A DNA stretch of 59,793 bases, from NCBI GenBank assembly GCA_001798595.1, contig MGSS01000081.1, forward strand, positions 1 to 59,793, read 5' to 3'. The translations under genes were made by a program, and so were the position numbers. Source of the stretch: Deltaproteobacteria bacterium RIFCSPLOWO2_12_FULL_60_19. Lineage in GTDB: Bacteria; Desulfobacterota; Binatia; UBA9968. Positions 4,524-8,523 of this stretch are shown piece after piece (position 1 is the first letter of the stretch; the number at the start of each line of letters is the position of its first letter). The notes under the pieces were generated by a model, which made no database searches, was not told the DNA's origin, and was given only the letters and a program-made list of their open reading frames with translations.

Positions 4524-5774
4524 ATGAACGACACGCAAAAAGCCGAAGCCCTGCCGATCGGCGCGCAGGCTGAAACAGAGGCGGAAGCGGGCGAGACCGA
4601 AAAGCGGTTTGCCATCGGGCTTATCAGCTTCTGCCACTCTCTCAATCACCTTCAGTCGAGCTTCACCTCGGTCCTCTTCCCGGTGATGATGCGGGATCTC
4701 GGGTTCGGGTTTCTCCAGCTCGGCGTCCTTTCGGCCGTCTCCAGCCTGACCGGCAACGGGCTCCAGGTGATCTACGGCTTGTTGGCCGGCATGTTCAAGC
4801 GCACGACGATGCTCGGACTGGGCAATGTGGTGTTGGGCTTGTCCACCATCCTCCACTCGCTGGTTGGAAATTACCCCCAACTCATATTCATGCGGGTGAT
4901 CTCCTCCGTCGGCTCCAGCCCGCAGCACCCCACGGGATCGAGCCTGCTCTCGCGCTACTATCCGAAGGCGCGCGGTTGGGCGCTGACCTTCCACTACACC
5001 GCCGGCAACGCGGGATCCTTCGTCGCCCCGGCGCTCGCATCGTTTCTCCTCCTCTACATGGGCTGGCGCTGGGTCTTCGTTATCTTCGGCGTTCCTGGAA
5101 TGTTGTTCGGCCTCGCCCTTTTTTTCCTTCGCGATTGGGGCCCTCAAGGCGGACTGGAAAACAAGAAAACCAAAGCGCATGCCGGGTTGAGCGCCTACGT
5201 CAAATGCTTGAAAGACCGCAACCTCATGCTGACCTCTCTCATCTTGATGGTCGGCGCGGCGGGTCGCGGCACCGGCGTCAACGCCACCTACCTGGTGCCG
5301 TTTTTCATGGAGCAGTTCTCGGTCTCCGCGCCGACCGGAGGGTTACTGTTGACGGCGCTGCAAGGCGCGGCGCTGGTCGGGCCGCTGACGATCGGCTGGC
5401 TGTCCGATAGATATTGGAAGCGGTCATTCATCGTTCAGATCACGCTCGCGCTTTCCGCGATCATGACCGTTTGGCTCCCGCATCACACGGGTCTGGACGT
5501 CCTATTCTTCGTCAACCTGCTTCTCTACGGCGCCGTCGTCCACGCGCGCGGCTCGCTCACCCAGGCGATGATCGCCGACTTTGCCTCGGAAGAGCTGGCC
5601 GACGCCGCCTTCTCGATCTACTTCTTCGTCGGCTTCATCTCCGCGCCCATCTGGACGCTCCTCACCGGCTACATCATGGACCACTACGGCTTCGCCCCCG
5701 CCTTCTACGTCGCCGCCTGCTCGTACATCGCCGGAATGATTCTGTTGATGTTTGTCAAAGAAAAGAGAAAGTAG
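4524..5774 (+). CDS. MFS transporter, 12 membrane segments
   Basis: A 416-residue major facilitator with a 28-residue acidic cytoplasmic tail followed by about 12 predicted membrane helices and a central loop near residues 210-230. GWLSDRYWKRS after helix 8 resembles the conserved MFS loop (GxxxDRxGR). No substrate signature is recognised. It is divergent from the NMT1 ABC operon and shares its promoter region. It ends close to a repeat-rich gap. A plausible role is carboxylate or drug movement; sequence alone does not decide. Confidence 0.85.
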   Translation: MNDTQKAEALPIGAQAETEAEAGETEKRFAIGLISFCHSLNHLQSSFTSVLFPVMMRDLGFGFLQLGVLSAVSSLTGNGLQVIYGLLAGMFKRTTMLGLGNVVLGLSTILHSLVGNYPQLIFMRVISSVGSSPQHPTGSSLLSRYYPKARGWALTFHYTAGNAGSFVAPALASFLLLYMGWRWVFVIFGVPGMLFGLALFFLRDWGPQGGLENKKTKAHAGLSAYVKCLKDRNLMLTSLILMVGAAGRGTGVNATYLVPFFMEQFSVSAPTGGLLLTALQGAALVGPLTIGWLSDRYWKRSFIVQITLALSAIMTVWLPHHTGLDVLFFVNLLLYGAVVHARGSLTQAMIADFASEELADAAFSIYFFVGFISAPIWTLLTGYIMDHYGFAPAFYVAACSYIAGMILLMFVKEKRK

Positions 5775-5779
5775 CTACA

Positions 5780-5959
5780 GGCCGCTGAAAAAGGCCCATC
5801 CACCGTCAGCCCGCCTGGGAATCTCTCTCCGGGCCGACATGTCCTCGCTTCGCTCGGAATCTCAGATTGCACATTTCAGATCTCAAATCTGCCATTTGAG
5901 ATTTGCGATTTGAGATCCCGAAGGGCTCGCATCGGCCCTCCGAGAGACCCCCAGGCGGG
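5780..5959. repeat. MITE-like nested inverted repeat
   Basis: Directly after the MFS stop, GGCCGCTGAAAAAGGCC (5780-5796) matches the reverse complement of 42421-42437 almost exactly, so it is a dispersed element end. It is followed by a 28-bp inverted repeat, arms 5810-5837 and 5932-5959 (23 of 28 positions complementary). Between the arms are AT-rich words (TTTCAGATCTCAAATCTG, ATTTGAGATTTGCGATTTG) that pair with each other. There is no coding potential or transposase. Together with 5982-6070 this fills the gene-free 5775-6089 interval. Confidence 0.55.
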
Positions 5960-5981
5960 CGGTAGTGATGGTTGCGGTCGA

Positions 5982-6070
5982 GGGGGCGAGCCGCGAAGGG
6001 CGACGGCACTGACCGTGCAGGTTCGAAAAAAGCAGAAACCTGTTGCCGTCGCCCGGAGAGGCTCGTCCCC
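5982..6070 (-). repeat. Structured repeat / candidate RNA element, copy 1
   Basis: Three nested stems can form. The outer stem is 5982-5992 with 6060-6070 (11 pairs, one wobble), the middle is 5998-6008 with 6044-6054 (11 perfect pairs), and the inner is 6018-6023 with 6037-6042. The loops contain CACTGACCG and TCGAAAAAA. A second copy at 6923-7009 keeps these loop sequences while changing the stems in a compensated way. The element lies about 20 bp downstream of the SDR gene's stop codon on the minus strand, so it would sit in the 3' end of that transcript. It could be a palindromic repeat of REP type or a structured RNA; the strand is inferred from the flanking genes. Confidence 0.55.
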
Positions 6071-6089
6071 GAGAGCGCCGCGCGGCCTG

Positions 6090-6839
6090 CTAAATCCTGC
6101 CGGCCATCGCGCCGCCGTCCACTAAGAGATCGGCAGCGGTGATGAAGTCGGATTCGTCCCCGCACATAAACAGCACCGCCTGAGCCACATCCCTCGGCGT
6201 CCCTCTGCGCCCGGCGAGATTCTTGACGTAGCGGTTCTCCGGCACCACGTCCTCGCCCACGGGCGAGCCGATGCGGTTGGGCGTGACCGAATTGACGCGT
6301 ATCCCATGCGGAGCAAGCTGAATCGCGAGCGAGCGTGTCAGATTCAACACCCCGCCCTTGGCCGCCGTGTAGGCGGTGGCGTCGGGTCTGCCCGTATAGC
6401 CGGAGGTCGAAGCGATATTGATGATGCGCCCTTTGCGCTTTTGATCGACCATGACGCGGGCGACAAGTTTCGTGCAGAGAAAGACGCTCTTCAGCGTCAC
6501 GTTCATCACCTTGTCCCACTCCTGCTCGGTCAAGTCTAAAATATTCTTGCGGTCGGTCCAGGCGGCGTTGTTGACCAAAATATCGATGCCGCCGCCCCAC
6601 TTCTGCGTAACCGCGCCGACCATCTTTTCAACGTCCGCCGCCGAGGAGACGTCGCACACCAACGCCATTGCGCAGCCTGGGTGAGCGGCGTTGACTTCGG
6701 CCGCCACCTTCTCGCCCCTGCCTTTGTCCAAATCCACAATCGCGACGCGCGCCCCCTCCTCCGCAAATATTTTAACGATCTCCTCCCCGATATTGCGCCC
6801 CGCCCCGGTCACAACGGCAACTTTATTTTCCAACTTCAT
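6090..6839 (-). CDS. Short-chain dehydrogenase/reductase (SDR), classical type
   Basis: A 249-residue NAD(P)(H)-dependent oxidoreductase with every classical SDR landmark. These are cofactor loop TGAGRNIG (11-18), D61-type acidic turn VCDV (61-64), NNAA (90-93), the structural Asn in NVT (113), catalytic S144, Y157 and K161 (YTAAK), and the C-terminal DGG. The ATG at 6839 is chosen because AGGAG lies eight bases upstream; an earlier start would add an unconserved segment. Acidic D36 and D38 after strand 2 favour NAD(H). The gene stands alone between two copies of a structured repeat. The substrate is unknown. Confidence 0.9.
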   Translation of the reverse strand: MKLENKVAVVTGAGRNIGEEIVKIFAEEGARVAIVDLDKGRGEKVAAEVNAAHPGCAMALVCDVSSAADVEKMVGAVTQKWGGGIDILVNNAAWTDRKNILDLTEQEWDKVMNVTLKSVFLCTKLVARVMVDQKRKGRIINIASTSGYTGRPDATAYTAAKGGVLNLTRSLAIQLAPHGIRVNSVTPNRIGSPVGEDVVPENRYVKNLAGRRGTPRDVAQAVLFMCGDESDFITAADLLVDGGAMAGRI

Positions 6840-6922
6840 AAACGATCTCCTTATCCTACTGTTCCCCGGCACGAAAAATTTATTCTGTCAACACTATCAG
6901 CACCAGCGGTTCCAACGACCGA

Positions 6923-7009
6923 GGGACAAGCCTCGATGGACAAAGGCACTGACCGCGAGGGGTCGAAAAAATCAGCGCCCTATTGCCTTTGGCCTGAGAG
7001 GCTTGTTCC
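6923..7009 (-). repeat. Structured repeat / candidate RNA element, copy 2
   Basis: This has the same architecture as 5982-6070. The outer stem is 6923-6932 with 7000-7009, the middle is 6938-6948 with 6984-6994 (10 of 11 pairs), and there is a shorter inner stem 6958-6961 with 6978-6981. CACTGACCG and TCGAAAAAA are unchanged in the loops. In the stems, G-C pairs of copy 1 become A-U here on both sides. The element is about 57 bp downstream of the MFS stop at 7066 and about 85 bp upstream of the SDR start, both read on the minus strand. Confidence 0.55.
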
Positions 7010-7065
7010 GACGGGCGTTGTCGCATCGCTTTCATTCCTCGCAAGCCGTCATTCGCCGCTTTTCC

Positions 7066-8523
7066 TCAATGCCCCTTCCCTTCCGCCGCCCGTATCATCC
7101 CGCTCCCGCGCATGAGCGAAGTGAACAACGCGACGAGGGTGATCGCGCTCGCCGCGATGTAACTCGCGTTCATCGACGAAACAAACGCCGGAGCGTTTTC
7201 CGCGCTCGGCGCCGCGCCCGGCGTGCCGGAATAATACCCAAAGGCCAGCGCCAGCAAAAGCCCGCCGAACGAAACCCCCAGCATATGCCCCAGCTCAAAG
7301 CCCGTGTGCACCATGCCGTTGGCCTGTCCGCGATGCTCCTTCGGCGCCGAGCCGATAATCGCCGCCTGGTTGGCGGAGTTGAAAAAGGCGGTGCCGATGC
7401 CGGTGAGCGCGAGCATCGCCGTCGGCCAGAGCCAATGAGAATCCACTCGCAACATCGCACCGATCAACACCGCGGCGAGAGAGGCCAGCACGCCGATCGT
7501 CGTCGGCGCGCGCGGCCCCACCTTGTCCGCCATGTGGCCGCCGACGGCCGACAGACTAACCGTAAAAATCGGCGGCGCTAAAAAGATCAGGCCCATAAAG
7601 GACGCCGAGAGGTGAAGCACGCCCTGGAGATAGAACGGCAGCAGAAAGCCGACCAGCCCACGGGTGATCGAAAGCGTAAGCAGGCTGATCACGCTGTACG
7701 CGAACATCTTTATTCTGAACAGCGGCAAATGGACCATCGGGCTCGGCGCTCTGCCTTCATGCGTGAAAAACGCCCACAGCGCCGCGCCGAACGCCAGGAG
7801 CAACACATCCTTTCTCGTGATACCGATCAACTCGGCGGCTTTGTGGTCCAGCAGCAACGTCAGCAACGACGTGAGCGTGATCAGCAGGCCCGCGCCCGCG
7901 TAATCGACTGAAGCCCCACCGGCGGAAGCCGGGGAGGTTGATCGACTTTTGAGTCTCACGGCGCTCAGCGCAAGGCCCGCCAAGCCGAAGCAAAAGGTCA
8001 GGAAGAAAATGGCGCGCCAGTGCAAGTAGTCGATAATCAGGCCGCCAAGCGGAGGGCCGATAAAAAAACCGGAGTGAAACGCCATCGTCATGATTCCCTG
8101 CGCCTTGCCGGCCCGTCCTTCCGGGACGGCATCCATCGCAAGGGCGCGGCCGGCCGACTGCGTCATGGCGGAGCCCACGCCCTCGACAAAGCGGAACAGG
8201 ATGAGCTGCAGAATCGTCTGCGAAAAGCCGCAGAGCAGCGAGGCGAGCGTAAGGGTCACGAAGCCGAGGCCGTAAATTTTTTGCCTGCCGTAGATGTCTC
8301 CCAGCCGGCCGAAGACAATCGAAAAGCTGATCGCCGCAAGCTGAAAAGAGATGAGCGCCCAGGCGATTCCTCGGATATCCGTGCCCAACCCGGCCGCCAT
8401 GGTCGGAAGAGAAATCATAAAGATCCTCGTCGACAACCCGGCGACAAAACTTCCGAGCATGGCGTTGATCAGGAGCAGCCAGTCCGTGTGGTCGCCCGTC
8501 GGGGTGTGTGTTGAAGATGCCAT
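7066..8523 (-). CDS. MFS drug-resistance transporter (DHA2/EmrB type)
   Basis: A 485-residue proton-driven exporter with about 14 predicted membrane helices, the DHA2 length and layout. The cytoplasmic motif GRLGDIYGRQK occurs after the second helix, and the helix-5 antiporter-like motif appears as GPPLGGLIIDY (about 156-166). It starts at ATG 8523 after a 13-residue tail. It is divergent from the glycan block that begins at 8718. Efflux of a lipophilic compound is the family-level prediction. Confidence 0.85.
   Translation of the reverse strand: MASSTHTPTGDHTDWLLLINAMLGSFVAGLSTRIFMISLPTMAAGLGTDIRGIAWALISFQLAAISFSIVFGRLGDIYGRQKIYGLGFVTLTLASLLCGFSQTILQLILFRFVEGVGSAMTQSAGRALAMDAVPEGRAGKAQGIMTMAFHSGFFIGPPLGGLIIDYLHWRAIFFLTFCFGLAGLALSAVRLKSRSTSPASAGGASVDYAGAGLLITLTSLLTLLLDHKAAELIGITRKDVLLLAFGAALWAFFTHEGRAPSPMVHLPLFRIKMFAYSVISLLTLSITRGLVGFLLPFYLQGVLHLSASFMGLIFLAPPIFTVSLSAVGGHMADKVGPRAPTTIGVLASLAAVLIGAMLRVDSHWLWPTAMLALTGIGTAFFNSANQAAIIGSAPKEHRGQANGMVHTGFELGHMLGVSFGGLLLALAFGYYSGTPGAAPSAENAPAFVSSMNASYIAASAITLVALFTSLMRGSGMIRAAEGKGH

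Follow-up and report, generated by a model that had tools for sequence, protein, structure and literature searches.

The stretch of DNA analysed here (59,793 nt, referred to as the window) contains a gene for an SDR family oxidoreductase (6090–6839, − strand; PF13561, 1.2e-61) that lies between two copies of a long hairpin, which we call H1. The two copies are where the earlier note had placed them and align well with each other. The core of copy a (5975–6077, + strand) was defined by a covariance model (113.5 bits), by folding and by a count of stem pairs; copy b (6916–7017, + strand; 90.7 bits) is among the more diverged of the 24 copies in the genome. Each copy is downstream of a minus-strand gene, as had been claimed: copy a is separated by 12 nt from the SDR gene, whose stop codon (CTA on the + strand, that is TAG on the − strand; 6090–6092) sits immediately beyond the 3′ boundary of the core, and copy b is 48 nt from the 3′ end of a gene for an MFS transporter (7066–8523, − strand; PF07690, 6.5e-56). 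We regard both genes as bystanders. On the other side of copy a, a second MFS transporter gene (4524–5774, + strand) ends with a TAG stop 5 nt before a short palindrome, GGCCGCTGAAAAAGGCC (5780–5796, + strand; identified by eye). Beside this palindrome lies a partner hairpin, H2 (5800–5965, − strand), which is joined head-to-head (5′-to-5′) to copy a. H2 was recognized by BLAST matches as a second dispersed repeat family and folds at −93.2 kcal/mol (z = −7.52).

Copy a is built from an outer helix that contains a tandem G-A step (CGAG/CGAG), an internal loop (GCGAA/GGAGA), a middle helix (GGGCGACGGCA/TTGCCGTCGCCC) and conserved apical parts (CACTGACCG and TTCGAAAAAAGCAG); loops and mismatches were named by eye. 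The segments GGCACTGACCG and TCGAAAAAA, together with the CGA and GAGA bases of the internal loop, are unchanged between the two copies, and the double-sided base changes reported in both stems, middle and outer, were confirmed. The + strand of both copies folds far better than dinucleotide shuffles (z = −6.97 for copy a and −4.83 for copy b), and folding of the − strand is weaker (z = −3.81 and −3.97, respectively). The better-folding strand is thus the complement of what the minus-strand SDR and MFS genes would transcribe.

To place these copies in context, we searched their own genome (G000, 4.2 Mb) with BLAST, which returned 23 matches. Of these, 22 were taken as true copies, aligned and used to build the covariance model; the match that was left out (C8:27599, 27 nt) falls, by eye, within a cytochrome c-like coding region. 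The model search that the earlier note had proposed finds 24 strong H1 copies in this genome (88–118 bits), including two additions that are absent from the 22-row alignment (C31:47853 and C42:1334). Two weaker members, C37:59650 and C68:2520, stand outside this count, the C68 locus being a distant doublet. The two copies do flank the SDR gene; however, the flanking is not special by itself, as it involves only 2 of the 24 copies. Same-strand close pairs are over-represented in the genome (4 gaps of less than 3 kb versus 0.41 expected, P ~ 0.0008, with the 3-kb threshold set after the positions had been seen). The genes between the four close pairs encode an SDR protein, an EamA protein, a TPP enzyme, two UbiD proteins and a haem-oxygenase-like protein. 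We rejected a composite element that carries the SDR gene, because the copies point the same way and the close pairs enclose ordinary genes. At one locus (G000:C31:43619–47954), three same-strand H1 copies alternate with two UbiD-family decarboxylase genes and the haem-oxygenase-like gene.

Of 57 related genomes, 13 carry diverged relatives of H1. Among the matches listed, these are 12 of 24 genomes of the same family and one genome (G025) that belongs to a different family within the order. The nine members of family f3, likewise of this order, and the 23 class members from outside the order are all without a match to the covariance model under the stricter filters of this search, which may miss weak members; the 57 relatives include no further genome of genus g1. 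A broader model, built from 48 aligned members, raises the counts in several genera, up to 65 in G006 with both strands included, and gives one weak match each in G008 and G009, again among the matches listed. Match totals include reverse-strand matches to the same hairpins, and per-genome totals are therefore upper bounds. The statement that the element belongs to no named RNA family stands: there is no match in Rfam for the window at gathering scores or for seven loci at E values of up to 0.1, and a known RNA family was accordingly rejected. A keyword search of titles and abstract openings in the open-access literature returned no description of this hairpin family.

Across the 22 copies, 97.9% of stem cells hold standard pairs compared with 91.3% in shuffles, and double-sided changes occur at 12 of the 24 pairs; no shuffle attains either value. 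In the middle helix every cell is intact (0 broken of 220). Among the 48 more diverse members, 95.7% of cells are paired versus 78.4% in shuffles and double-sided changes occur at 23 of 24 pairs, in an alignment that was fitted to the structure and is biased towards it. G-U cells greatly outnumber A-C cells (27:2 in the 22 copies and 73:3 in the 48 members), and this excess over A-C mismatches indicates that it is the + strand that is selected to fold. The + strand is also the stabler strand in all 24 copies, under RNA and DNA parameters alike. The earlier proposal of a selected single-strand structure is therefore borne out by covariation and by the G-U excess, and we consider it strongly supported that one strand (+) is under selection to fold; RNA and single-stranded DNA fit the data equally.

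Between families the stems vary freely, and the motif CACYGANCG, an AGGTT region, a GCACNG..CYATYG region and the G-A mismatches recur in many (by eye). The earlier note had held that homologues with retained palindromy and lost loops would speak for a mobile repeat. This occurs at one locus, G000:C37:59650–59805, where an AT-rich cassette replaces the H1-type loop within a preserved palindrome, whereas the other homologues that were printed keep the loop sequence at least in part (by eye). TAGCCCGGATTATTC and its inverse form the borders of some copies, in which the 5′ side also has a stretch close to ACGAGGAAA. As an additional covarying helix these outer arms find no support: pairing within a copy (−10.1 kcal/mol) is no better than pairing between copies (−10.8 kcal/mol).

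We then considered the genes around the copies, using gene calls from a simple home-made codon score rather than from a standard gene finder. Between unidirectional genes, 12 copies are in sense and 4 in antisense orientation; a further 7 lie between convergent genes and 1 between divergent genes. The upstream gene is on the same strand and ends towards the element in 19 of the 24 copies, with a stop codon 35–54 nt before the core in 11. These 11 stop codons abutting the 5′ side are 6 TAG, 5 TAA and no TGA, and all seven that abut the 3′ side, 3–14 nt from the core, are TAG, the distance bins having been picked after the data were seen; reference genes end in 28 TGA, 19 TAG and 12 TAA. The SDR gene, with its TAG at the 3′ edge of copy a, follows the same pattern. 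Where it can be read, the foot of the element is TAG or TAA after C, T or G, with no invariant tag (by eye). Across the 48 flanks, the preference for gene 3′ ends is not significant (30 of 48, P = 0.11).

These contexts bear on whether H1 is a functional RNA, namely a 3′-untranslated or intercistronic domain that follows a stop codon, protects the upstream mRNA or tunes downstream translation, and has spread by duplication. The selected + strand, the same-strand genes that end towards most copies, 11 of them with stops 35–54 nt before the core, and the excess of sense over antisense copies would all suit such a role. The sense excess is weak, however (P = 0.077, not significant), and three of the antisense copies (C50, 109.6 bits; C8, 106.7 bits; C102, 104.8 bits) score like sense copies, the fourth being copy b. 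The single-stranded DNA reading gives the same strand signal, since the + strand is also preferred with DNA parameters. The neighbours, which include ATP synthase delta (atpH) and alpha (atpA), L27 (rpmA)/obgE, SDR, MFS and many other genes, are unrelated and have no obvious common pathway. A gene-specific regulator was rejected on these grounds, and an RNA function tied to a particular gene is not supported. We consider a functional RNA quite unlikely as the explanation of the family. Long hairpins at gene ends and pairs of copies in one orientation would suit an intrinsic terminator or an attC-like recombination site. Yet the 3′ flanks show no T-run after the hairpin (by eye), one copy is inside the atp operon and the copy between rpmA and obgE lies beyond a separate T-tailed hairpin; no attC core sites, as judged by eye against their consensus, were noticed, and the copies are dispersed instead of arrayed. 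Both readings are highly improbable.

Comparison of the same spacers in relatives shows that occupancy is specific to lineages. The atpH–atpA spacer is 173 nt long here, with H1 starting at the atpH stop codon, and is 9–27 nt long in 8 of the 19 relatives read (of 22 atpA loci, 17 spacers including our own were read, as were those of G004, G006 and G009; G011 and G002 were left out). The remaining relatives have longer spacers or other inserts, an H2-type hairpin in G004 among them (by eye). With the broad model, a hairpin is found at the atpA locus in G000 alone among the 22 loci. For rpmA–obgE, L27 was identified at 14 of the 23 loci and the distance was measured at 12, being 71–88 nt in 8 of these; G000 has an antisense H1 in this position, G002 has another hairpin of the superfamily (41 bits with the broad model), and G004 and G012 have an AT-rich repeat of 188–189 nt. 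Such a pattern, with the element in one lineage and not in others, is consistent with insertion, although loss elsewhere could also produce it, the comparison of filled and empty sites being between relatives and not within one species. That neither site is common to other genera also argues against a functional RNA.

The partner hairpin is itself part of a large family, with 72 BLAST matches in G000, many of which are incomplete and some of which hit a single place on both strands. Many H2 copies are closely alike, and H2 looks like the younger family. Its loops are exchangeable: either a GTGGGACGAGG-type loop or an AT-rich cassette of the GATCTCAAATC type is present. Of 16 H2 loci that were read, 12 have the common kind of loop, 3 have the AT-rich cassette (the window, C65 and C93) and 1 is broken. 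In the window the cassette occupies positions 5840–5927 (− strand; limits set by eye), and the cassette that replaces the H1-type loop at C37:59650 is of the same kind. A sequence resembling GGCCGCTGAAAAAGGCC adjoins most of the 16 H2 copies (by eye). Junctions like that between H2 and H1 in the window are also seen at C102 and C37:77560 (by eye). Head-to-head doublets, with 2–7 nt between the partners, occur at six loci of this genome (C142, C57, C14, C75, C3 and C68) and at five loci of genus g5 (L115–L118 and L121). At two of the g5 loci (L121:228–340 and L117:1890–2007), tandem 3′ halves of hairpins lie beside complete doublets (by eye), as if newer doublets had displaced the centre of older ones.

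A miniature inverted-repeat element (MITE) of a DDE transposon would explain the edges of some copies. On this reading, the arms TAGCCCGGATTATTC/GAATAATCCGGGCTA would be terminal inverted repeats, TAG or CTAG would be the target duplication and the core would be a palindromic interior; like MITEs, the elements are short, have no coding capacity, show inverted outer arms in some copies and have TAG/CTAG edges. At atpH–atpA, TAG is found on both sides (TATTAG–element–CTAGGGAGG), whereas the empty sites of G013 and G003 read TAAGGAG; in the same spacer of G027 a different palindrome is bordered by exact copies of ACTAG at this stop codon; and CTAA is found on both sides at C75 and C100. Elsewhere the picture is mixed, and at least 3 target letters agree in only about four of some ten copies with readable ends (by eye). 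The interior is strictly and the arms poorly conserved, which is the reverse of what is expected of MITEs, and neither a strand-specific fold with wobble pairs nor head-to-head doublets are expected of a DDE element. No transposase lies between the members of the four close H1 pairs. We therefore regard a MITE as unlikely.

The closest parallels are with REPs and their composites, the BIMEs. Passages in PMC3733652 describe REPs as often supplying TAG stops to flanking genes, sitting at the 3′ ends of genes and forming HH heterodimers. H1 and H2 are likewise dispersed intergenic palindromes in many copies (24 of H1, plus H2 and the doublets), with head-to-head heterodimers, mosaics, positions at gene 3′ ends and termini at TAG stops. 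As far as described in part of PMC8266576, the REP transposase TnpA-REP is strand-specific and, in E. coli, requires a mismatch bulge and a GTAG motif; H1 similarly has conserved mismatches in its stem. The modules also alternate in orientation and have been recombined, in the H2–H1 composite and in the doublets, as in BIMEs. In contrast to REPs, the H1 core is about 103 nt long instead of 20–40 nt (3–5 times the size of a REP), has a conserved apical loop and ends in a TAG/TAA foot in place of an invariant GTAG or CGTC (by eye). BIMEs bind gyrase, IHF or Pol I, and REPINs are paired REPs that are moved by a RAYT in trans. As in REPINs, two head-to-head hairpins are the apparent unit at the five g5 loci and the six doublets of this genome; unlike in REPINs, the partners are different hairpins and not inverted copies of one, and H1 also occurs without such a partner.

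RAYT genes of gammaproteobacteria have inverted REPs on both sides, according to part of PMC2817692, and the earlier note had named a link to a REP-associated transposase as a sign of a mobile repeat. Y1 (IS200/RAYT-type) transposases are encoded in 23 of 24 genomes, with three in G000. None of 30 Y1 loci (L081–L110), which are a subset of the Y1 matches, has the hairpin within up to 1.5 kb on each side, some of these flanks being cut by contig ends, and no hairpin is near the three Y1 genes of G000, of which the one on C64 is close to a contig end. Thus, the transposase link was looked for at Y1 loci and was not found, and a Y1 gene closely flanked by hairpins was set aside as the signature of a mobiliser at the loci tested. 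In 11 longer Y1 loci, hairpins occur in 3, about 1.7–3.5 kb from the gene. One of the long loci, L133 (G004:C25:26500–33500), is the sole Y1 locus with doublets on both sides; they lie about 2.4 kb and 1.7 kb away and enclose another large gene. Among the matches listed, G013 has 19 Y1 matches versus 4 R2 matches. One Y1 transposase of G000 (L131:1799–2773, on C144) has a C-terminal region that is weakly similar, below the Pfam cut-off, to a DnaA helix-turn-helix domain.

The elements work like BIMEs, yet they depart as tested from REPs in three defining features: size, an invariant tag and a cognate RAYT flanked by two inverted copies. The earlier note had preferred a functional RNA and had given a REP-type repeat as the main alternative. 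The selected fold has held up, but a REP-type repeat fits the distribution better than a functional RNA does, because the neighbours are unrelated, the atpH–atpA copy is lineage-specific, doublets and mosaics are present and the elements end at stop codons. Our favoured reading, which we consider somewhat probable, is that H1 is a mosaic hairpin repeat, mobile and non-autonomous, and works as REPs and BIMEs do. One strand forms a long hairpin with interruptions, in which the G-A mismatches of the two helices and the apical loop are conserved. We infer movement of the element by an enzyme that would act in trans, recognise this fold and copy or move the element into new intergenic sites, often at a TAG or TAA stop. 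The folded strand may be single-stranded DNA handled by a RAYT- or HUH-like enzyme, and effects on neighbouring genes, such as 3′ protection of mRNA or the supply of stop codons, would probably be secondary.

Several observations weigh against a REP-like repeat. No tested Y1 locus is closely flanked, the cores are several-fold larger than REPs, the foot is not an invariant GTAG, the arms pair no better in cis than in trans and the preference for 3′ ends is not significant; moreover, a middle helix without a broken cell in diverged copies is more than expected of a decaying insert. A core of conserved mismatches and loop on freely changing stems, kept in nine genera, might instead be the recognition site of an enzyme other than a RAYT, or a bifunctional element of RNA and single-stranded DNA, and would then represent a mobility system parallel to REP/RAYT; this is a tentative and rather doubtful possibility.

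As a REP/BIME-like repeat, H1 brings such elements into a lineage that is uncultured; its units are far larger than the REPs described and its fold is strictly kept, and this combination makes the recognised parts of the fold easier to see. As no cognate transposase was found at the Y1 loci examined, what moves the hairpins becomes a directly testable question. The atpH–atpA spacer is a possible hot spot, in which relatives carry differing inserts, several of them palindromic and often beginning at the atpH stop (L187–L207). Differently filled in several relatives, this spacer seems to preserve a natural record of insertions that recurred at a single stop codon.
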